A stretch of 64,000 bases of DNA, taken from NCBI RefSeq assembly GCF_004403185.1, contig NZ_SOHJ01000011.1, positions 434,001 to 498,000 of the forward strand, written 5' to 3'. A program made the translations under genes and the position numbers. The stretch comes from Cryobacterium suzukii (GTDB taxonomy: Bacteria; Actinomycetota; Actinomycetes; Actinomycetales; Microbacteriaceae). The first letter of the stretch is position 1. Each line of letters begins with the position of its first letter. A model generated the notes under the pieces. The model saw only the letters and a list, made by a program, of their open reading frames with translations, made no database searches and was not told the origin of the DNA. Below, piece after piece: positions 38,973-52,583 of the stretch.

Positions 38973-40454
38973 TTACGGGGTCGGCGTGAGCGTGTATTTC
39001 GTCGACAGGTACTCCTGGATACCCTCGAGTCCGCCCTCGCGGCCGAGTCCGGACTGCTTGACACCGCCGAACGGTGCGGCGGCGTTGGAGACGACGCCGG
39101 TGTTCAGGCCCATCATGCCGGTCTGCAGCTTGTCGATCATGCGCTGTCCCCGGGCCAGGTCGGTCGTGAACACGTAGCTGATCAGGCCGAACTCTGTGTC
39201 GTTGGCGAGGCGCACGGCATCCGCTTCGTCGGTGAACGTGCTGATCGCGAGCACCGGGCCGAAGATTTCGTCGCGCAGAATATCGCTGCCCGGCTTGACA
39301 TCGGTGAGCACGGTGGGCGCGTAGAAGGTGCCCTCACGCTCGATCGCCGCGCCGCCGGTGAGCAGGGTCGCGCCGCGGGTGAGGGCGTCCTGCACGAGGG
39401 AATCGGCCTTGGCGACGGCTTTGCCATCGATCAGCGGGCCGATGGTAATGCCGGTTTCTGTACCACGCCCGATCTGGAACGCCTCGACCTTGTCGGTGAT
39501 ACGCCGGGCGAATTCGACGGCGACGGACTCGTGCACGATGAAGCGGTTGGCCGCGGTGCAGGCCTGGCCAATGTTACGGAACTTGGCGATGAGGGCGCCG
39601 TCGACGGCTTTGTCGAGGTCGGCGTCAGCGAAGACGACGAACGGGGCGTTGCCGCCGAGTTCCATCGAGGTGCGCAGCACGTTCTCGGCGGAAAGCTTGA
39701 TGAGCGACTTACCGACCGCGGTCGACCCGGTAAAGCTGAGCTTGCGGAGGCGTGGGTCGGCGATGATCGGCTCAGTGACCGCGCCCGACTGCGACGTCGT
39801 GATGACGTTGACAACGCCGGCGGGCAGGCCGGCCTCCTCGAGCAGGGCCACGAAGTGCAGGGTCGTCAGCGGTGTGAGTGCGGCGGGCTTGACGACGACG
39901 GTGCAGCCGGCGGCGAGTGCCGGGGCGATCTTGCGGGTCGCCATGGCCAGCGGAAAGTTCCACGGGGTGATTAAGAGGCAGGGGCCGACCGGGTGCTGGG
40001 TGACGATCATGCGACCGGTTCCCTCTGGATTGGCGCCATAGCGGCCGCTGATGCGCACGGCTTCCTCGCTGAACCAGCGCAAAAACTCGCCGCCGTAGGC
40101 AACCTCGCCGAGTGCCTCTGGCAGGGGCTTGCCCATTTCGATGGTCATGAGCAGCGCGAACTCCTGCTTGCGTTCCTGCAGCAGGTCAAAGGCTCGGCGC
40201 AGGATTTCGCCGCGCGCGCGGGCCGGAGTCGCTGCCCAATCGGCCTGCGCGGCGTCGGCGGCGTCGAGGGCTGCGGCGCCGTCGGCTACGCTCGCGTCGG
40301 CGATGGTCTTGATGACTCGGCCGGTAGCCGGGTCGGTGACATCAAGGGTGCGCCCGCCTGTGGCGGCGACCCACTTGCCGTTGATATAGAGCTGGCTGGG
40401 CACGCGCGCGAGCAGCTCGGATTCGTTCGTTGGCGCTTCGGTAACAACCGTCAT
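38973..40454 (-). CDS. gabD: Succinate-semialdehyde dehydrogenase (NADP-type)
   Basis: 493-residue aldehyde dehydrogenase oxidising succinic semialdehyde to succinate. Motifs: LLITPWNFPLAMATRKIAPAL, FTGSTAVGKSLI, the general-base Glu in MELGGNAPFVVF and the nucleophilic Cys in NIGQACTAANRF, all as in GabD. GGGAG five bases upstream supports ATG 40454. It is divergent from the homoprotocatechuate cluster, whose aldolase HpaI releases succinic semialdehyde, so it most likely completes that pathway to the TCA cycle. Confidence 0.92.
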   Translation of the reverse strand: MTVVTEAPTNESELLARVPSQLYINGKWVAATGGRTLDVTDPATGRVIKTIADASVADGAAALDAADAAQADWAATPARARGEILRRAFDLLQERKQEFALLMTIEMGKPLPEALGEVAYGGEFLRWFSEEAVRISGRYGANPEGTGRMIVTQHPVGPCLLITPWNFPLAMATRKIAPALAAGCTVVVKPAALTPLTTLHFVALLEEAGLPAGVVNVITTSQSGAVTEPIIADPRLRKLSFTGSTAVGKSLIKLSAENVLRTSMELGGNAPFVVFADADLDKAVDGALIAKFRNIGQACTAANRFIVHESVAVEFARRITDKVEAFQIGRGTETGITIGPLIDGKAVAKADSLVQDALTRGATLLTGGAAIEREGTFYAPTVLTDVKPGSDILRDEIFGPVLAISTFTDEADAVRLANDTEFGLISYVFTTDLARGQRMIDKLQTGMMGLNTGVVSNAAAPFGGVKQSGLGREGGLEGIQEYLSTKYTLTPTP

Positions 40455-40579
40455 TGCATCTCCCATGCTCGTATCTGCCCGTCGATCTGACGGTATTAGC
40501 CTAGCTGCGCCCACCGACGGGGTCGCGGGCCGCTCGGTTTCATGATCGAGCCGCTGATCAACGGGGTTGCGTCTTTGGC

Positions 40580-40594
40580 ATGATCGTATATCAT
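40580..40594. promoter_or_regulatory. GntR-type operator-like palindrome upstream of the hpa operon
   Basis: ATGAT-CGTAT-ATCAT, perfect 5-bp arms around an AT-rich centre, about 37 bases before the hpaG start and 125 bases before gabD. It resembles sites of FCD-type GntR regulators. Likely bound by the GntR protein encoded second in the operon. Confidence 0.5.
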
Positions 40595-40630
40595 TTCAAA
40601 TACACACGCAGCGCTGCGAGAGGACATCAC

Positions 40631-42097
40631 ATGCAGAACCCCGCACCATTCACCGGTACCCCCGGAAAGGTGATCGCCCTGCACCTCAACTACCCCTCCC
40701 GCATTGCTCAGCGCGGCCGCGTGCCGGAACAGCCCTCCTACTTTCTGAAGCCCGGCACCTCGGTGAGCGCGTCGGGCACCCCCATCGAACGCCCGGCCGG
40801 CACCGAACTGCTCGCCTTCGAAGGTGAGATCGCCCTGATCATCGGCCACAGCATCCGTCGAGTGAACCCGGAACAGGGCTGGGCGGCCGTCTCTGGCGTC
40901 ACCGCCGCCAACGACTTCGGCGTCTACGATCTGCGCTACGCCGACAAGGGGTCGAATCTGAAGTCCAAGGGCGGCGACGGCTTCACCCCGCTCGGCCCGA
41001 ACGTGCTCAACGCCAGAGGCGTTGAACCCGATGCCCTGCGGGTGCGCACCTGGGTCAATGGCAAGTTGGTGCAGGAAGACACCACCGCGCAGCTGGTCTT
41101 CCCGTTCGGCCGTCTGGTTGCCGATCTCTCCCAGTTGATGACGCTCGAACCGGGCGACGTGATTCTCACCGGAACCCCGGCCGGCTCCTCCGTGGTGCAG
41201 CCCGGTGATGTGGTCGAGGTCGAAGTCGATGCCCCGACCGCGCCGGGCGCGCCGAGCAGCGGGCGGCTGGTCACACCGGTCGTCGCTGGCGCGGTCGCGA
41301 TGGCCGAATACGGCGCCGGCCCGAAGATCGACGATCTGCAGCGGGCTGAGGCGTGGGGGTCAGCCGAAGCGGCCGGATTACCGGCATCGACCGGCCCCGC
41401 CACCATTTTGACCGACGAGCTCAAAGCGAAGATTAACTCGGTTGGCACCGCCACGCTCAGTTCCCAACTGCGCAAACGCGGCCTGAACAACGTCTCGATC
41501 GACGGGCTTCAGTCCACTCGTCCCACCAAACGTCTGGTGGGGCTCGCCCGAACCCTGCGATTCATTCCCAACCGGGAAGACCTCTTCATCTCCCACGGCG
41601 GCGGCTACAACGCGCAGAAGCGCGCCTTTGACTCGCTGCGCCCCGATGATGTACTCGTGATCGAGGCCCGCGGCGAGACCGGTACCGGCACGGTCGGGGA
41701 CATCCTCGCCCTCCGCGCCCAGGTGAACGGCGCGGCCGGTCTGGTGACGGATGGTGGGGTGCGCGACGTGACCGCCGTGGCCGCCCTCGAGATCCCCACC
41801 TACTTCGCCAACGCACATCCGGCCGTTCTCGGCCGCAGGCACGTGCCGTGGGACACGGACCTCACCATTTCCTGCGGCGGTGCGGCCGTGCAGCCCGGCG
41901 ATGTGATCGTGGGAGACGCCGACGGCGTGCTTGTGATTCCGCCGCGCTTAATCGAGGAGGTCGTGACCGACGCGATCGAGCAGGAGCGTGAGGAGACCTT
42001 TATCGCCGAGATGGTTGCCGCGGGCGAGGGCGTCGACGGGCTGTACCCGCTGAACGCCACGTGGAAAGGACGGTACCAGGAATGGCTATCCCAGTGA
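40631..42097 (+). CDS. hpaG: HpaG-like FAH-fold isomerase/decarboxylase fused to an RraA-like domain
   Basis: 488-residue two-domain protein. Residues about 10-220 are a fumarylacetoacetate-hydrolase fold (GEIALIIGHSIRRV, AANDFGVYDLR, KGGDGFTPLGP, VILTGTPAGSS) as in HpaG, which decarboxylates and isomerises 5-oxopent-3-ene-1,2,5-tricarboxylate. Residues about 265-475 are RraA-like (EARGETGTGTVGDILALRA, GLVTDGGVRDV, DVIVGDADGVLVIPP), a fold with oxaloacetate-decarboxylase and HMG-aldolase members. Enterobacterial HpaG is instead two FAH domains. First gene of the hpa operon; a GAGAGG site lies upstream. The last 16 bases overlap the gntR gene. Confidence 0.85.
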   Translation: MQNPAPFTGTPGKVIALHLNYPSRIAQRGRVPEQPSYFLKPGTSVSASGTPIERPAGTELLAFEGEIALIIGHSIRRVNPEQGWAAVSGVTAANDFGVYDLRYADKGSNLKSKGGDGFTPLGPNVLNARGVEPDALRVRTWVNGKLVQEDTTAQLVFPFGRLVADLSQLMTLEPGDVILTGTPAGSSVVQPGDVVEVEVDAPTAPGAPSSGRLVTPVVAGAVAMAEYGAGPKIDDLQRAEAWGSAEAAGLPASTGPATILTDELKAKINSVGTATLSSQLRKRGLNNVSIDGLQSTRPTKRLVGLARTLRFIPNREDLFISHGGGYNAQKRAFDSLRPDDVLVIEARGETGTGTVGDILALRAQVNGAAGLVTDGGVRDVTAVAALEIPTYFANAHPAVLGRRHVPWDTDLTISCGGAAVQPGDVIVGDADGVLVIPPRLIEEVVTDAIEQEREETFIAEMVAAGEGVDGLYPLNATWKGRYQEWLSQ

Positions 42098-42798
42098 CGG
42101 TCCCGCCCATCGGCCTGAGCAAGTCCCAACTCGCCTATCAATGGATCAAGGCGCGCATCTCAGACGGAACGTTCACGCCGGGCTACCGTTTAGTCCTGGG
42201 CGCGATCGGTAAGGACCTGGGCGTGAGCGTCGTACCGGTGCGCGAGGCGATCCGCCGCCTCGAAGCGGAGGGGCTGGTCACCTTCGAGCGCAACGTCGGA
42301 GCGCAGGTCGCCATGCTCGAAGAGACCGAATATCTCTATACGATGCAAACGCTGAGTGTCGTGGAGGGCGTCGCGACCGCACTGTCGGCGCCGTTCATCA
42401 CCACCGCCGACATTGAACGCGCCCGCACGGTCAACCAGGCCATGGTCGCCTCCCTCGAAGACCTCAACCCGCACCGGTTCACCGAACTCAACCTCGAATT
42501 TCACTCGATCCTGTTCGAGAACTGCCCAAACCCGCACATCCTCGACCTGGTGCACCGCGGCTGGAACCGCATGAAGGTGCTGCGCGACTCGACCTTCAGT
42601 TTCGTGCCCGGCCGCGCCCGCGACTCAGTAGCCGAGCACGACAACCTGCTGCAGCTGATCGAGTCGGGCGCCGACGCGCTCACGCTCGAGCTGGCGGCGC
42701 GCGCCCACCGCACCGGCACACTGGATGCCTTCCTCGCTTACCAGAAATCGCATCACCCCCACCCAGCATCCGACCCGTCCCCGAGAAAGAGAGCCTGA
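42082..42798 (+). CDS. GntR-family (FCD) transcriptional regulator
   Basis: About 238 residues. The N-terminal winged helix (GLSKSQLAYQWIKARISDGTFTPG then VVPVREAIRRLEAEGLV) is typical GntR; the C-terminal all-helical FCD domain follows, with HRFTELNLEFHSILFENC holding metal-ligand-like His residues. It sits inside the hpa operon and probably represses it, with an aromatic intermediate as inducer. ATG 42082 lies inside hpaG; GTG 42094, overlapping the hpaG stop, is an in-frame alternative. Confidence 0.88.
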   Translation: MAIPVTVPPIGLSKSQLAYQWIKARISDGTFTPGYRLVLGAIGKDLGVSVVPVREAIRRLEAEGLVTFERNVGAQVAMLEETEYLYTMQTLSVVEGVATALSAPFITTADIERARTVNQAMVASLEDLNPHRFTELNLEFHSILFENCPNPHILDLVHRGWNRMKVLRDSTFSFVPGRARDSVAEHDNLLQLIESGADALTLELAARAHRTGTLDAFLAYQKSHHPHPASDPSPRKRA

Positions 42799-42801
42799 CC
42801 G

Positions 42802-44316
42802 ATGACACAGACGTCTGTCCAGACCACACACTACGTACCGGCCGACCTGCCCACCAGCATCCGTCATTTCATCGGTGGAGAATTCGTCGACAGCGTCGGC
42901 GGCGAGACGTTCGACGTGCTCGACCCGGTCTCGAACCAGACCTACGCCACCGCGGCCGCCGGCCAGCAGGCCGACATTGATCTGGCCGTGGCTGCCGCGA
43001 AGGAAGCCTTCTCCAGTGGACCGTGGCCGCGCCTGCTGCCCCGCGCCCGGGCCAGGGTGCTGCACCGCATCGCCGACGCCGTCGAGGCGCAGGATGCCCG
43101 GCTCGCCGAGCTGGAAACCTTCGATACCGGGCTGCCGATCACCCAGGCCCTCGGCCAGGCGCAACGCGCGGCCGAGAACTTTCGCTTCTTCGCCGACCTG
43201 ATCGTGGCGCAGGCCGACGACACCTACAAGGTTCCGGGCAAGCAGATCAACTACGTCAACCGCAAGCCGGTCGGTGTGGCCGGGCTGATCACGCCGTGGA
43301 ACACCCCCTTCATGCTCGAAAGCTGGAAGCTGGCCCCCGCGCTCGCTTCCGGCTGCACCGTCGTGCTGAAACCGGCCGAATTCACGCCGCTGTCGGCGAG
43401 TCTCTGGTCCGAGATCTTTCGCACTGCCGGGGTGCCCGACGGTGTGTTCAACCTGGTCAACGGCATCGGCGAGGAGGCCGGCGATGCGCTGGTCAAGCAT
43501 CCCGATGTGCCGCTCATCTCCTTCACCGGCGAGACCACGACCGGCCAGACCATCTACCGAAACTGCGCCGCGAACCTGAAGGGCATGTCGATGGAGCTCG
43601 GCGGCAAGTCGCCCGCCGTGGTCTTTGCCGATGCCGACCTTGACGCCGCCATCGACTCGACCCTGTTCGGCGTGTTCTCGCTCAACGGCGAGCGCTGCAC
43701 CGCGTCGAGCCGCATCCTGGTGGAACGCTCCATTTATGACGATTTCTGCGCCCGCTATGCGGCCCGCGCTGCGAGCATCGTGGTCGGCGACCCTCATGAC
43801 CCGAAGACCGAGGTCGGCGCACTCGTTCACCCGGAGCACTACGCCAAGGTCATGAGCTACGTCGAAATCGGCAAGACCGAGGGTCGCCTGCTCGCCGGCG
43901 GCGGCCGCCCCGATGGACTGCCAGAGGGCAACTATGTCTCCCCAACGGTCTTCGCCGACGTCGCGCCGACCGCCCGCATCTTTCAGGAGGAGATCTTCGG
44001 CCCGGTCGTAGCCATCACCCCCTTTGACACGGATGCCGAAGCGCTCGCGTTAGCCAACGGGGTCAAGTACGGGCTGGCGGCCTACATCTGGACCACCGAC
44101 CTCACCCGCGCGCACAACTTCGCGCAGTCGGTCGATGCTGGAATGGTCTGGTTGAACTCGCACAACGTGCGGGACCTGCGCACCCCGTTCGGCGGCGTCA
44201 AGGCTTCAGGCCTCGGCCACGAGGGCGGCTACCGCTCGATCGACTTCTACACCGACTCGCAGGCCGTGCACATCACGCTCGCGCCCGTGCACACGCCCCG
44301 CTTCGGCGGCAAGTAG
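42802..44316 (+). CDS. hpaE: 5-carboxymethyl-2-hydroxymuconate-semialdehyde dehydrogenase
   Basis: 504-residue aldehyde dehydrogenase that oxidises the HpaD ring-cleavage product to 5-carboxymethyl-2-hydroxymuconate. Motifs: GLITPWNTPFMLESWKLAPAL, the Glu in MSMELGGKSPAVVF and the Cys in LNGERCTASSRI. Length and motifs match HpaE. It starts three bases after the gntR stop, so the two are co-transcribed. Assignment relies on the dioxygenase immediately downstream as well as on sequence. Confidence 0.9.
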   Translation: MTQTSVQTTHYVPADLPTSIRHFIGGEFVDSVGGETFDVLDPVSNQTYATAAAGQQADIDLAVAAAKEAFSSGPWPRLLPRARARVLHRIADAVEAQDARLAELETFDTGLPITQALGQAQRAAENFRFFADLIVAQADDTYKVPGKQINYVNRKPVGVAGLITPWNTPFMLESWKLAPALASGCTVVLKPAEFTPLSASLWSEIFRTAGVPDGVFNLVNGIGEEAGDALVKHPDVPLISFTGETTTGQTIYRNCAANLKGMSMELGGKSPAVVFADADLDAAIDSTLFGVFSLNGERCTASSRILVERSIYDDFCARYAARAASIVVGDPHDPKTEVGALVHPEHYAKVMSYVEIGKTEGRLLAGGGRPDGLPEGNYVSPTVFADVAPTARIFQEEIFGPVVAITPFDTDAEALALANGVKYGLAAYIWTTDLTRAHNFAQSVDAGMVWLNSHNVRDLRTPFGGVKASGLGHEGGYRSIDFYTDSQAVHITLAPVHTPRFGGK

Positions 44317-44378: not shown

Positions 44379-45455
44379 ATGACACTTAACCCGATCCCCA
44401 CCCCCACTGCTACCCCGCCCGACATCCTCCGCTGCGCCTACATGGACATCGTCGTGACCGACCTGGCCCGCTCACGCGAGTTCTACGTCGACATTCTCGG
44501 CCTCGTCGTTACAGAGGAGAGCGACACCGAGATCTACCTGCGCAGCTTCGAAGAGTTCATCCACCACAACCTCGTACTGCGCCAGGGGCCGATCGCCGCC
44601 GTCGCCGCGATGGCCTTCCGGGTGCGCAGCCCCGAAGACGTCGACCTCGCCGAGGCCTACTACCAGGAGCTCGGCTGCCGCACCGAACGCCGCACCGACG
44701 GCTTCGTCACGGGCATCGGCGACAGCGTACGTGTCGAAGACCCGCTCGGCTTTCCCTATGAGTTCTTTTACTCGACCACCCACGTTGAGCGCCTCGCCTG
44801 GCGCTACGACCTACAGGGTCCGGGCGCGCTCGTGCGCCTCGACCACTTCAACCAGGTCACGCCCGATGTCGGTCGTGGCCGCAAATACCTCGAAGACCTG
44901 GGCTTTCGTGTCACCGAAGACATTCAGGACTCCGACGGCGTCACCTACGCGGCCTGGATGCGCCGCAAGGACACCGTGCACGACACCGCCCTCACCGGCG
45001 GCAACGGGCCGCGCATGCACCACATCGCCTTCTCAACCCACGAGAAGCACAACATCATCTACATCTGCGACAAGCTCGGCGCGCTGCGCAAGAGCGACCT
45101 GATCGAGCGCGGACCCGGTCGCCACGGCGTCTCCAACGCGTTCTACCTCTACCTGCGCGACCCCGACGGCCACCGCGTCGAGATTTACACGCAGGACTAC
45201 TACACCGGCGACCCCGACAACCCCGTCGTCACCTGGGATGTGCACGACAACCAGCGCCGCGACTGGTGGGGCAACCCCGTCGTACCCAGCTGGTACACGG
45301 ATGCCTCGCTCGTGCTCGACCTCGACGGTAACCCCCAGCCGGTCACCCTGCGCACCGAGTCCAGCGAAATGGCCGTGACCGTCGGCGCCGATGGCTTCTC
45401 GTACACTCGCAAAGACGACGAGCTGGCCGGCTTCAAACTCGGCACCACCCTCTAG
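44379..45455 (+). CDS. hpaD: 3,4-dihydroxyphenylacetate (homoprotocatechuate) 2,3-dioxygenase
   Basis: 358-residue extradiol dioxygenase of the vicinal-oxygen-chelate type, cleaving homoprotocatechuate at the 2,3 bond. It resembles the Brevibacterium/Arthrobacter Fe(II)/Mn(II) enzymes in length. Two repeated modules are visible; the metal ligands are expected in VRLDHFNQV (His), RMHHIAFSTHEK (His) and HRVEIYTQDYY (Glu), and all are present. A GAGGAG site lies seven bases before the ATG. Key enzyme of the cluster. Confidence 0.93.
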   Translation: MTLNPIPTPTATPPDILRCAYMDIVVTDLARSREFYVDILGLVVTEESDTEIYLRSFEEFIHHNLVLRQGPIAAVAAMAFRVRSPEDVDLAEAYYQELGCRTERRTDGFVTGIGDSVRVEDPLGFPYEFFYSTTHVERLAWRYDLQGPGALVRLDHFNQVTPDVGRGRKYLEDLGFRVTEDIQDSDGVTYAAWMRRKDTVHDTALTGGNGPRMHHIAFSTHEKHNIIYICDKLGALRKSDLIERGPGRHGVSNAFYLYLRDPDGHRVEIYTQDYYTGDPDNPVVTWDVHDNQRRDWWGNPVVPSWYTDASLVLDLDGNPQPVTLRTESSEMAVTVGADGFSYTRKDDELAGFKLGTTL

Positions 45456-45467
45456 GAAGAAGCGCGC

Positions 45468-46253
45468 ATGCTTGACCAGTCAGCCATCGCAGAAATCGCA
45501 GACGAACTCGTCGCGGCCGGCCTAAACCGGTCTACCGTTCCCCTCCTGACCGCCCGCTACCCCGGCATGACCGTCGACGACGCCTACGCCGTGCAGAGCC
45601 TGTGGAAGGAGCGCGGCATCGCCGCCGGCCGCCGACTCGTCGGCCGAAAGATCGGCCTGACGTCCAAGGTCATGCAGGTTGCGACCGGCATCACCGAACC
45701 CGACTACGGTGTGATTTTCGCTGACGAGGTCTACGAGAATGGCGCAAGCATCCGTTTCGACAGCTTCTCGAACGTGCGAATTGAGGTCGAGCTCGCGTTC
45801 GTGCTCGGCAAGCCTCTGTCCGGGCCGAACTGCACCCTCTTCGACGTGCTCGATGCCACGGACTACGTGGTTCCGGCGTTGGAAATACTCAGTTCGCGCA
45901 TTGAAATGGCCGGCCGCACGATCGTCGATACCATCTCCGACAACGCGGCGATGGGCGGGATGGTGATCGGCGGCACGCCCGTGAAGGTCGGCGATATCGA
46001 CCTGCGCTGGGTGTCGGCGCTGCTCTATCGCAACCAGACCATAGAAGAATCCGGCGTGGCCGCGGCCGTGCTGAACCACCCCGCTGCCGGCGTCTACTGG
46101 CTGGCGAACAAGCTCGCTCAGCACGGAACCAGCCTTGAGGCCGGGGAGATCATTTTGGCCGGCTCGTTCACCCGCCCGATGTGGGTGGAACAGGGCGACA
46201 CCGTGCACGCCGACTACGGACCATTGGGAGCCATCACATGCCGATTCGAGTAG
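45468..46253 (+). CDS. hpaH: 2-oxo-hept-4-ene-1,7-dioate hydratase
   Basis: 261-residue FAH-superfamily hydratase adding water to 2-oxohept-4-ene-1,7-dioate. Motifs: RKIGLTSKVMQ, DYGVIFADEVYENG, RIEVELAFVLGKPL and DNAAMGGMVIGG are those of HpaH/MhpD-type enzymes with the Mg-binding acidic residues. Twelve bases separate it from hpaD; its end overlaps hpaI by 16 bases. Confidence 0.92.
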   Translation: MLDQSAIAEIADELVAAGLNRSTVPLLTARYPGMTVDDAYAVQSLWKERGIAAGRRLVGRKIGLTSKVMQVATGITEPDYGVIFADEVYENGASIRFDSFSNVRIEVELAFVLGKPLSGPNCTLFDVLDATDYVVPALEILSSRIEMAGRTIVDTISDNAAMGGMVIGGTPVKVGDIDLRWVSALLYRNQTIEESGVAAAVLNHPAAGVYWLANKLAQHGTSLEAGEIILAGSFTRPMWVEQGDTVHADYGPLGAITCRFE

Positions 46254-47059
46254 CAGCGGACCCGACCTTTCGAGACGTTCTCGGGAGCACTGAACGGGCG
46301 CAGATTGGCATGTGGGTGTGCTCCGGCAGCGCACTGGTGGCCGAAATCTGCGCCGGCAGCGGCCTCGACTGGCTTTTGATCGATACCGAACACAGCCCCA
46401 ACGGCCTCGAATCGACGCTCAGCCAGCTGCAGGCCGTACACGGCTACCCGATCGTGCCGCTCGTGCGGGTGCCTACCGGCGAGCGCGTCATCGTCAAGCA
46501 GCTATTGGACCTCGGCGCTCAGAACCTGTTGATCCCGATGATCGACACCGCCGCGCAGGCCCGCGAGATGGTGTCCGCCGTGCGCTACCCGCCGCACGGG
46601 GTCCGCGGGGTCGGCAGCGCCCTCGCCCGGGCCTCCCGGTGGAACCGCATCGACGACTACCTGGCTTTCGCCAACGAGACGATCTCACTGTTCGTGCAGA
46701 TCGAGACGACGGATGCCGTGGCCAACGTCGCCCAGATCGCCGCCGTCGACGGCGTCGACGGCCTGTTCATTGGTCCGTCGGATCTCGCTGCGTCGATGGG
46801 CCTGCTCGGTCAGCAGGACCATCCCGACGTCGTCGCCTCCGTCGAGCGCTGCATTCGCACCGTCACGGCGCTCGGCAAACCCGTCGGAGTGAATGCTTTC
46901 GCGCCCGCGACCGCCGAGCGCTACCTCGCGGCGGGCGCCCGCTTCGTGCTCGTCGGTGCCGACGTGGCTATCCTCGCCCGGGCTTCGGAGAAGCTCGCCG
47001 CCTCCTTCATCAGGCCAACGGGTCTGGCCGGGCCCGAGGTTCCGCGGCCGAGTTACTGA
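46238..47059 (+). CDS. hpaI: 4-hydroxy-2-oxoheptanedioate aldolase
   Basis: 273-residue class II aldolase of the HpcH/HpaI family, splitting 4-hydroxy-2-oxoheptanedioate into pyruvate and succinic semialdehyde. Motifs: WLLIDTEHSPNG, VPLVRVPTGE, MIDTAAQAREMVSAVRYPPHGVRG, and LFVQIETTDAV with the metal-binding Glu followed by GLFIGPSDLAASMG. ATG 46238 is supported by GGGAG seven bases upstream. The open frame continues upstream inside hpaH. Confidence 0.93.
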   Translation: MPIRVAADPTFRDVLGSTERAQIGMWVCSGSALVAEICAGSGLDWLLIDTEHSPNGLESTLSQLQAVHGYPIVPLVRVPTGERVIVKQLLDLGAQNLLIPMIDTAAQAREMVSAVRYPPHGVRGVGSALARASRWNRIDDYLAFANETISLFVQIETTDAVANVAQIAAVDGVDGLFIGPSDLAASMGLLGQQDHPDVVASVERCIRTVTALGKPVGVNAFAPATAERYLAAGARFVLVGADVAILARASEKLAASFIRPTGLAGPEVPRPSY

Positions 47060-47113: not shown

Positions 47114-47854
47114 GTGTCGATCCCAGAATTCGCCGAGACCTCCGGCAGCCCCCAGCCGGCGCCCGCCGCGCACTCGCAAACCCTGTCTCGCGGCATCCGG
47201 GTGTTGGAGATTCTCGCTGACACCGACAAGCCGATGAGCATCGTCGAACTCGCAGCAGCCCTCGACGTACACCGTTCGATCGCTTATCGCATCCTCCGTA
47301 CTCTTGAAGATCACGGCCTCGTCGTGCGGGACCCGGCTGGACTGGTGCGGCTCGGCGCGCGCCTGGCCGCCCTGGCTCGCGGGGTGTCCCGCGACCTGCA
47401 GGCCACGGCCCTGCCGGTGCTCACCCGCATCGCCAACGAGCTGGGCATGACCGCGTTCATCGCCGTGCTCGACCAGAGCGAAATCGTCACGCTCGTGAGC
47501 ATCGAGCCGCGGCAGGCCCACGCGACTGTCGCGCAGCAGCCGGGCACGCGGCATCCGCTGAACAGAGGCGCGCCTGGAATCGCCATTCAGTCCGGGCTGG
47601 GCGCCGCGCAGTGGGCCGCGCTCGGCCACGCGGAAACCCGGCGCAGCGAGGCCCGCGAGGTCGCCGACCTCGGCTATGCCTCCAGCCACGACGAGGTCAT
47701 TCCCGGCCTGTCGTCGATCGCCGTGCCCCTCGTTGTGCCCGGAGAATCACCCGCCTCTCTCGCCGTCGTGTACATCTCGAGTCTGCATTCCCCCACCGAC
47801 ATCGGCGCTGCACTCACTGCGGCCGCGCGCACGATCGTCGCCGGGCTTCGCTGA
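47114..47854 (+). CDS. IclR-family transcriptional regulator
   Basis: 246-residue IclR protein: N-terminal winged helix (LSRGIRVLEILADTDKPMSIVELAAALDVHRSIAYRILRTL in outline, about residues 20-60) and a GAF-like effector domain with HPLNRGAPGIAIQ and GLSSIAVPLV motifs. IclR regulators often control aromatic catabolism, so it may act on the hpa genes together with GntR. Its stop is directly next to the stop of the convergent membrane-protein gene with no bases between. Confidence 0.9.
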   Translation: MSIPEFAETSGSPQPAPAAHSQTLSRGIRVLEILADTDKPMSIVELAAALDVHRSIAYRILRTLEDHGLVVRDPAGLVRLGARLAALARGVSRDLQATALPVLTRIANELGMTAFIAVLDQSEIVTLVSIEPRQAHATVAQQPGTRHPLNRGAPGIAIQSGLGAAQWAALGHAETRRSEAREVADLGYASSHDEVIPGLSSIAVPLVVPGESPASLAVVYISSLHSPTDIGAALTAAARTIVAGLR

Positions 47855-51010: not shown

Positions 51011-52453
51011 CTAACCGTTGATGACCTGCGGCACACCGAGCGCCTTGAGACCCTCAACGCCAAACTCGAGCCCGTAGCCGGACTGCTTGGACCCGCCGAA
51101 AGGAATCATCGGGTGCACTGCGCCGTGCGCGTTGATCCAGACCGTGCCGGTATCCAGGCGCGCGGCCACCGCGCGGGCGGCAACCAGGTCGCTCGACCAA
51201 ACCGAACCGCCGAGACCGACGTCAACACTGTTCGCACGTGCAATGACCTCGTCGAGGTCGGTATAGCGGATGATTGGAAGCGCCGGCCCGAACTGCTCCT
51301 CGCGTACAAGTGGGTTGTCGTCGTCGATGTCCGCGATGAGGGTGGTCGGGTAGAAGAAGCCGGGGGCGTCCAGGTCGGGGTTGCCGCCGATGAGCACGCG
51401 GGCTCCGGAATCCTTGGCGGCCTGCACGAGACCGGCGACAATATCAAACTGTGCCTTGTTCTGCAGCGGCCCGAGCACGTTGTTCTCGTCGAGTCCGACG
51501 CCCATCGGCATCTTCGCGGCGACCGCGGTCAGCGCGTCGCAGACCGCGTCGTAGATGTCGTCGTGCACGTACAGGCGCTTGAGCGCGGCACAGGTCTGGC
51601 CGGTGTTGATGAACGCACCCCAGAACAGTCCCTCGGCGATGGCTTGCGGGTCGGCATCGCGCAGCACGATGCCGGCGTCGTTGCCGCCGAGTTCGAGGGT
51701 GAGGCGCTTGACCGTGTCGGCCGAGCTCTTGATGATGGCTTTGCCGGTCGCTGTCGAGCCGGTGAACATGACCTTGCCGATGCTCGGGTGCACGGCGAGG
51801 CCGGCGCCGATCGCGCGGCCGCCGGAGACGACGGTGACAAGCCCCTCTGGCAGCACCTGGTTGAGCACGGCGACGAGGGCGAGCACGCTGAGCGGCGTGT
51901 ACTCGGACGGCTTGACGACGACGGCGTTGCCCATGCGCAGGGCGGGAGCAATCTGCCAGATCGAGATCATCATCGGCCAATTCCACGGGCCGATCGCGCC
52001 GACGACGCCGATCGGGCGGTAGGTGATCGCGGCGTGGGTGGTGCCGTCGTCTATGAGCACCTCGGAGTCCAGCACAGTCGCCGCCGCGGTGCGCAGCCAT
52101 GCGGATGCTCCGCCCACCTCAAAGCGCGCGTTGGGTCCGTTGAGTGGTTTTCCCTGTTCGCGGGAGAGAAGCTGGGCGAGAGCTTCAGCTGCGGCGTCGA
52201 TCGCGTCGGCGGCACGTACCATGACGGCGCTGCGGGCTTCGTGACCGAGGGCAGCCCAAGCCGGCTGGGCCAGCGTTGCCGCGGCGATGGCAGCTTCTAG
52301 GTCGTCGGCGTTGTGCACCGGGGCGAGGCCAACGACCGCGCCCGTCGCGGGGTCCAGAATCTCGCGTGTCTCGCCCGTTGCGGGGGTGATGGCCGCGAGC
52401 AGCCCCTCAAAGGTGTCGAGCGTCGGAGTTGCCAGGGTGTCGTTCGTTGTCAT
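51011..52453 (-). CDS. NAD(P)-dependent aldehyde dehydrogenase family protein
   Basis: 480-residue aldehyde dehydrogenase. Motifs: GAIGPWNWPMMISIWQIAPAL, FTGSTATGKAIIKSS, Glu in LTLELGGNDAGIV, nucleophilic Cys in INTGQTCAALKRLYV, and the C-terminal PFGGSKQSGYG. Substrate unclear; related sequences are often annotated as general or betaine-type aldehyde dehydrogenases. AGGA four bases before ATG 52453 sets the start. It stands alone between hairpins. Confidence 0.88.
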   Translation of the reverse strand: MTTNDTLATPTLDTFEGLLAAITPATGETREILDPATGAVVGLAPVHNADDLEAAIAAATLAQPAWAALGHEARSAVMVRAADAIDAAAEALAQLLSREQGKPLNGPNARFEVGGASAWLRTAAATVLDSEVLIDDGTTHAAITYRPIGVVGAIGPWNWPMMISIWQIAPALRMGNAVVVKPSEYTPLSVLALVAVLNQVLPEGLVTVVSGGRAIGAGLAVHPSIGKVMFTGSTATGKAIIKSSADTVKRLTLELGGNDAGIVLRDADPQAIAEGLFWGAFINTGQTCAALKRLYVHDDIYDAVCDALTAVAAKMPMGVGLDENNVLGPLQNKAQFDIVAGLVQAAKDSGARVLIGGNPDLDAPGFFYPTTLIADIDDDNPLVREEQFGPALPIIRYTDLDEVIARANSVDVGLGGSVWSSDLVAARAVAARLDTGTVWINAHGAVHPMIPFGGSKQSGYGLEFGVEGLKALGVPQVING

Positions 52454-52583
52454 GAGTCCTCCACGTTGAGTGCGGCGACTGGAATCCCGCCGTGGCTCCA
52501 CCGTAGGCGCGAGCATGCGCAACCACTTGCACGAGAGCGCTGCCCACCCACCATCCCGCGCACATCATGCCCGGGCCCGGGGC

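Follow-up and report, generated by a model that had tools for sequence, protein, structure and literature searches.

A FAH-RraA fusion protein in the homoprotocatechuate cluster of Cryobacterium suzukii as a probable replacement of HpaF and HpaG

The window analysed here, a stretch of 64,000 nucleotides from Cryobacterium suzukii, harbours a homoprotocatechuate (hpa) cluster with a gene encoding a FAH domain fused to an RraA-like domain. This fusion probably acts as a bifunctional replacement of HpaF and HpaG, converting 5-carboxymethyl-2-hydroxymuconate (CHM) to 2-oxohept-3-ene-1,7-dioate (OHED), because hpaF was not found, the fusion is linked to hpaD, and Erwiniaceae clusters with a related HpaD use HpaG and HpaF. 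The explanation as a whole, in which such a replacement works with the FAH half as tautomerase and the RraA half as decarboxylase, is one in which we infer every reaction, and we believe it slightly more than we doubt it. The fusion marks a real, widespread and chemically sensible variant of the pathway; what a first-pass annotation of this DNA had proposed for it is plausible in outline.

Fusion gene and hpa cluster

The longest open reading frame at the fusion locus (40580-42097) is an uninterrupted frame of 505 aa. A start at 40631 would agree with the closest of the homologues compared (L010, 92%), which likewise begins with M-Q-x-P at this point. The description of the gene as a FAH and RraA-like fusion held, since one frame of 488 aa contains both Pfam domains and is spanned from residue 8 to 485 by a single NCBIfam model, NF009399/PRK12764, at 845 bits (cut-off 444). 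The fusion matches this equivalog, named 'fumarylacetoacetate hydrolase family protein', over the full length with both domains, and the FAH-RraA architecture is already catalogued there as one family and is not new. The family name carries no reaction; what the present analysis adds is an hpa context that stays constant and a lack of hpaF. The motif GLVTDGGVRD, reported earlier for the RraA-like half, is present and contains R378 and D379.

The FAH half had been called HpaG-type, which stands for fold and context and not for formal membership, as it scores under the cut-offs of the HpaG models TIGR02303 (142.2 bits, cut-off 276.4), TIGR02305 (112.9, cut-off 228.65) and NF011750 (121, cut-off 811). 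In the predicted structure of the fusion (mean pLDDT 82.2, pTM 0.50, residues 100-116 below 50), the placement of the domains relative to each other is not trustworthy because of the pTM. Foldseek with this model led from the FAH half to HpcE, and from the RraA half to RraAS2.

Table 1. Coordinates of the fusion gene, its domains and the neighbouring genes in the window
Feature	Position	Strand	Remarks
Succinate-semialdehyde dehydrogenase-like	38973..40514	-	TIGR01780 555 bits, under cut-off 646; diverges upstream of fusion
FAH-RraA fusion protein	40631..42097	+	488 aa, NF009399/PRK12764
FAH domain, residues 13-200	40667..41230	+	Pfam FAA_hydrolase 2.7e-50
Variable linker, about residues 205-258	41243..41404	+	
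RraA-like half, Pfam core residues 273-435	41405..42088	+	Pfam RraA-like 4.3e-31
GntR-type regulator	42061..42798	+	ORF overlaps fusion gene end
HpaE, CHMS dehydrogenase	42802..44316	+	TIGR02299 over cut-off
HpaD, homoprotocatechuate 2,3-dioxygenase	44379..45455	+	TIGR02295 over cut-off
HpaH hydratase	45468..46253	+	TIGR02312 over cut-off
HpaI-type aldolase	46238..47059	+	TIGR02311 327.5 bits, under cut-off 368.8
IclR-type regulator	47114..47854	+	Best model PcaR/PcaU/PobR, under cut-off

Downstream of the fusion, on its strand, genes for GntR, HpaE, HpaD, HpaH, HpaI and IclR follow in this order. The earlier assignment of these genes to an hpa cluster was borne out, with HpaE, HpaD and HpaH over the NCBIfam cut-offs and HpaI under its own. 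The best PDB match of HpaD was 3ecj (phmmer, 660 bits over 348 residues), and the protein is a close relative of solved homoprotocatechuate 2,3-dioxygenases, presumably those of the Brevibacterium/Arthrobacter type. Because of this close relationship, homoprotocatechuate is a well-founded prediction for the ring substrate of the cluster. A few genes beyond the cluster (51011-52522, - strand), the window also encodes an aldehyde dehydrogenase that is 73% identical to a pTC2 protein annotated as maoB/feaB (phenylacetaldehyde dehydrogenase).

Search for hpaF and a two-FAH HpaG

The stretch from HpaE to HpaH requires the isomerisation of CHM, a decarboxylation and a second isomerisation (PMC12718150). 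HpaF, the CHM delta-isomerase (PF02962), belongs to a different family from the fusion, and its step is otherwise missing from the cluster. In profile searches, PF02962 was found in none of 199 genomes of the same family, and neither in the C. suzukii genome itself nor in the fusion protein; the model matched four of four hpaF-bearing plasmid records and none of 14 standard control genomes. A tblastn search with four HpaF sequences as queries (E-values up to 1e-5) detected no HpaF in the stretches of at most 10 kb on either side of 80 fusion loci, the best 80 of at least 529 relatives. PF02962 matched eight of 396 phylum genomes, all of a single genus, with 24-44 bits (seven over the cut-off), and none of these eight carries the fusion over its cut-off. 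The tautomerase families covered in the C. suzukii genome were PF02962 and PF01361 (4-oxalocrotonate-type tautomerase); the latter was also without a match there, and was found in six of 14 control genomes.

A two-FAH HpaG was not seen in the C. suzukii genome, since the frames that hold the remaining four PF01557 matches measure 253-295 aa and are too short for such a protein. Within the cluster, HpaH (42 bits) is the only PF01557 match other than the fusion, and the genome encodes three FAH proteins besides these two. The first-pass annotation had noted no recognisable hpaF in the window; the same is found for the whole genome with a model that recognises hpaF plasmids, and a search of the genome for hpaF together with a full HpaG found neither. 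CHM isomerises spontaneously at a low rate (PMC12718150), so a missing hpaF need not mean that another enzyme has replaced it.

Comparison with other hpa clusters

Two plasmids of Erwiniaceae (Pantoea and Erwinia) encode an HpaD 78-80% identical to that of the window, in an operon that also includes genes for HpaE, HpaF and a two-FAH HpaG. The gene order on these plasmids is HpaG, HpaE, HpaD, HpaF, (SSADH in Pantoea), HpaH and HpaI, and both FAH domains of the Pantoea HpaG score over the HpaG domain cut-offs. Because the dioxygenases are this similar, the same ring-cleavage product is taken to be the one that these three enzymes handle elsewhere. The window-like HpaD of both plasmids (L116, L117) lies in hpa operons that otherwise look enterobacterial, with HpaE at only 47-48%, which suggests that hpaD alone may have been transferred.

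Similar to HpaG of Pantoea and Erwinia, the fusion is located at the start of the hpa operon. Compared with HpaG/HpcE (NF011750, TIGR02303, TIGR02305; PDB 1gtt, 1i7o), its FAH half shares 37% identity with 1i7o when the folds are aligned and carries the metal triad of the C-terminal domain. Unlike the two-FAH HpaG, the fusion holds one FAH stretch only, and an RraA-like domain is found instead of the second FAH domain. Pannonibacter possesses HpaF, HpaE, HpaD, one FAH, HpaH and HpaI in this order, and the stretch covered in Deinococcus contains HpaE, HpaB, HpaD, one FAH and HpaF. In the actinobacterial clusters, the fusion is present in place of HpaG and HpaF. This comparison lends good support to the suggestion that more than one step is covered by the fusion.

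Distribution and linkage to hpaD

The same fusion is present in other actinobacterial hpa clusters. It was detected over the NF009399 cut-off in 71 of 199 genomes of the same family (72 copies; the genomes are phylogenetically non-independent) and is therefore not an assembly accident; among the sampled phylum genomes it was detected over the cut-off in eight of 396. HpaD over its cut-off occurs in 77 of the 199 family genomes, including all 71 with the fusion, and in each of these 71 both genes lie on the same contig, 2.6-5.9 kb apart from start to start. HpaD is found within 8 kb of 71 of the 72 fusion copies, the exception being the second copy in genome G064. The two copies of this genome (G064:C51:368416 and 383513) are 15 kb apart, and only one lies within 8 kb of an over-cut-off HpaD.

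Six genomes possess HpaD without the fusion. Fusion halves are located at contig ends in G153, the contig of G113 ends near the regulator, and G011, G018, G093 and G143 carry an RraA gene without fused FAH.

The individually named fusion loci are the best 80 of at least 529 relatives, viewed over at most 10 kb per side and in some cases cut by contig ends. The closest of these 80 belong to Cryobacterium (92-93%). GntR is present at 79, HpaE at 78 and HpaD at 75 of the 80, and the end of the pathway is represented by HpaH and HpaI at 41, by a DapA-type aldolase at 34, by both at none and by neither at five. The last pathway steps are swappable while the fusion stays constant. Examples of a DapA-type gene replacing HpaH and HpaI are L044:12126-13079, L111:11424-12371 and L063:11984-13087. 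The L044 protein is over the cut-off of TIGR00674 and, against the exception model TIGR02313 'HpaI-NOT-DapA' with its cut-off of 396.7, reached 325.9; the DapA-type protein of the fusion clusters is perhaps a hydratase-aldolase. Plasmid pTC2 of A. aurescens TC1 carries the fusion as well. Arthrobacter Rue61a, whose closest sequenced relative is A. aurescens TC1, grows on homoprotocatechuate and 4-hydroxyphenylacetate (PMC3534580).

Active-site residues

Residues were compared in 38 fusions, that of the window and 37 from the best 80 of at least 529 relatives. In the FAH half, E64, E66 and D95 (the E-x-E ... D metal triad) and K113 are invariant (38/38). The same holds for D357, R378 and D379 in the RraA half (38/38), and position 455 is E in 37 fusions and D in one. 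D357-X20-R378-D379 and E455 align with D102, R123, D124 and E199 of the HMG/CHA aldolase of P. putida (3noj), which has the metal and catalytic motif D-X20-R-D. This enzyme, also an oxaloacetate decarboxylase, has its metal and catalytic positions in common with the RraA half, in which they are conserved; the RraA half is only weakly similar to it overall, is fused and belongs to another pathway. In the aldolase, stabilisation of the enolate requires R123, and D124 and E199 serve as metal ligands (PMC5065237). Judged by their residues, both active sites of the fusion look complete, and the catalytic Arg/Asp constellation of the P. putida enzyme, the loss of which had been considered, is kept in the RraA half.

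R24 and Q27 are invariant in the FAH half as well. His and Glu, presumably a catalytic pair, occupy these positions in the Deinococcus FAH and in the C-terminal domain of Pantoea HpaG. A reading of R24/Q27 as the loss of this pair was dropped, as the Pannonibacter hpa FAH and stand-alone sister FAHs also lack that His.

Proposed role and division of labour

In the proposed mechanism, CHM from HpaE would enter the fusion, and the FAH half, with its metal-bound 2-oxo-acid site, would catalyse the enol-to-keto tautomerisation of CHM to OPET. OPET would then be decarboxylated through a dienolate by the RraA half, which would bind a divalent metal of its own and use Arg378 as electron sink, a mechanism modelled on RraA-fold enzymes acting on oxaloacetate. 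The FAH half would also tautomerise 2-hydroxyhepta-2,4-diene-1,7-dioate to OHED, which would be passed to HpaH and HpaI, or to the DapA-type aldolase in other species. We propose this split between tautomerase and decarboxylase tentatively, with doubt slightly outweighing belief.

In favour of this split, ten tested FAHD enzymes are fast oxaloacetate tautomerases that decarboxylate on average about 2x10^4 times slower, although earlier oxaloacetate decarboxylase reports for FAHD1 and YisK are noted in the same source (PMC10825186). HMG/CHA-type RraA-fold enzymes are named oxaloacetate decarboxylases in NCBIfam. It is plausible that the RraA half replaced the second FAH domain as decarboxylase, because the FAH half keeps the metal triad and the missing FAH domain would be the metal-free one. 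The FAH half may also decarboxylate by itself, since FAH-type proteins in other hpa clusters are assigned as OPET decarboxylase and it has the same metal triad. In Acinetobacter, two FAH proteins form a complex whose decarboxylation activity exceeds that of the isolated metal-domain homologue 60-fold and that of the second FAH protein by itself 12-fold (PMC12718150). As the latter alone is only 12-fold less active, the division of labour in that complex is unclear, and the same paper describes as ambiguous which role each of the two domains of HpaG plays. A second FAH partner of the Acinetobacter kind was not found here for the fusion.

The literature searched yielded no biochemistry of the fusion and no RraA-fold enzyme acting on OPET. 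Nor did this search, outside of which most subscription journals and supplements lie, yield a description of the fusion as hpa pathway variant, and the available parts of homoprotocatechuate genome papers make no mention of a fusion enzyme.

A wider scenario appears possible to us, though more doubtful: the RraA half decarboxylates OPET as a vinylogous beta-keto acid and, with a tautomerising FAH half, runs the three formal steps, so that HpaF and the second HpaG domain are dispensable in actinobacteria, and the RraA half later escaped the fusion more than once. If the proposed role of the fusion is right, actinobacteria such as Cryobacterium, Leifsonia, Arthrobacter and Amycolatopsis follow the textbook route of homoprotocatechuate degradation except for its central part, and genome annotation could close apparent hpaF/hpaG gaps. 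A defined reaction in catabolism would then be known for the RraA fold, which is most familiar from RNase regulators. With two active sites in one chain and three known intermediates, the fusion is a clean test system.

The strongest alternative, although a rather unlikely one, assigns the halves the other way round, with the FAH half as OPET decarboxylase (perhaps HHDD isomerase) and the RraA half as a metal-dependent CHM tautomerase replacing HpaF. One-FAH clusters elsewhere carry hpaF, and the actinobacterial ones carry RraA and no hpaF; since Deinococcus and Pannonibacter pair one FAH with HpaF, RraA would have come into the place of HpaF by plain substitution. With the C-terminal (decarboxylase) HpaG model the FAH half reaches 142 bits, against 113 with the N-terminal one, and it retains the metal triad, whose two Glu are missing from the N-terminal domain in Pantoea HpaG. 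Moreover, proton exchange at the methyl group of pyruvate is catalysed by the RraA-fold HMG/CHA aldolase (604 per second in the presence of phosphate, 2 in its absence; PMC5065237), so this enzyme can enolise 2-oxo acids. Against the reversed assignment, no RraA-fold tautomerase was met in the literature searched, and the metal-domain homologue from Acinetobacter has weak activity when its partner is missing (PMC12718150). The sequence cannot decide between the two assignments, and we lean towards the FAH half as tautomerase.

An HMG/CHA-like pyruvate aldolase, performing the last C-C cleavage of the homoprotocatechuate or a parallel pathway, would agree with the catalytic constellation of the RraA half. 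This role is improbable, as the RraA half scores under the cut-offs of the CHA aldolase models (NF006731 84.9 bits, cut-off 179; TIGR02798 73.6, cut-off 304.5), and 75 of the 80 fusion loci (best 80 of at least 529 relatives) have their own aldolase within 10 kb, HpaI at 41 and DapA-type at 34. The constancy of the fusion while the aldolase changes also speaks against it.

Equally improbable is a side job of the fusion, for example the repair of enol-oxaloacetate or another 2-oxo acid, with CHM turned into OHED spontaneously or by an unlinked FAH protein. The three FAH proteins of the genome besides HpaH and the slow unaided isomerisation of CHM would allow for this, but the linkage to hpaD in 71 of 71 family fusion genomes argues for a role in the pathway.

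The nearest solved RraA fold to the RraA half, by sequence and by structure (TM-score 0.90-0.92 by target length), is the stand-alone RraAS2 of Streptomyces coelicolor (5x15), described in its entry title as an unusual member of the RNase ES inhibitor RraA family. That the RraA half is, like RraAS2, a non-catalytic regulator or oligomerisation module is nevertheless the least probable reading, given the identity of D357, R378 and D379 in 38 of 38 fusions, scores far under the cut-offs of the RNase E regulator models (NF006875 47.6 bits, cut-off 136; TIGR01935 47, cut-off 123.8; TIGR02998 24.1, cut-off 241.25), and relatives of the RraA half kept as separate genes adjoining ring-cleavage genes.

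Separate RraA and FAH genes

A second ring-cleavage cluster was found in the genomes G011, G143, G093, G089 and G102 (L124-L130, L132), with a lone RraA gene, an HpaD-type dioxygenase (38-40% identical), and HpaH and HpaI (63-80% identical). HpaE was not among the best matches at this cluster. Within about 16 kb, four of the five genomes also possess a flavin monooxygenase, another FAH, a DUF3500 gene and a RidA-type protein; these were not seen in G089. The RidA-type protein is 56-61% identical to a PF01042 protein of G018. The cluster of G018 consists of HpaD, HpaE, GntR, RraA, RidA-type, HpaI and HpaH. It was initially taken to be without any FAH, which was dropped, as a different FAH gene lies about 10 kb further on the same contig. 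G018 shows that the two halves can be separate.

In an RraA tree of 50 hand-picked rows, with an arbitrary root and with L034 and the G018 row on long branches, the six lone RraA genes of these genomes (G011, G143, G093, G089, G102, G018) fall inside the fusion-containing clade (support 99/98). They occupy two places, one with L034 (100/90) and the other with L019, L027 and L119 (99/97). The RraA half thus probably became a separate gene more than once, at least twice by the tree, with refusion of RraA as a conceivable alternative to release from the fusion. All six keep D, R and D, with D at position 455. The lone RraA rows L025, L026, L158 and L159 are outside the fusion-containing clade; L158 has D, R and D with E, and the other three have H at position 357.

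Stand-alone relatives of the FAH half (43-46%; L032, detected via the HpaG query, 41%) were found at L024, L030, L031, L032 and L035 near an HpaE-like aldehyde dehydrogenase. Near these five genes, neither RraA nor HpaF gave a match. Their surroundings include P450-, ferredoxin- and reductase-like frames, named by eye, and in L031 a LigB-type dioxygenase lies between the FAH gene and the HpaE-like dehydrogenase. A plasmid of Rhodococcus erythropolis BG43 encodes a FAH protein of 403 aa (L123:8001-9212) between a VOC protein and a flavin hydroxylase. The C-terminal part of this protein has a faint RraA likeness (24.0 bits, cut-off 24.5), and it is perhaps a degenerate or remote fusion.
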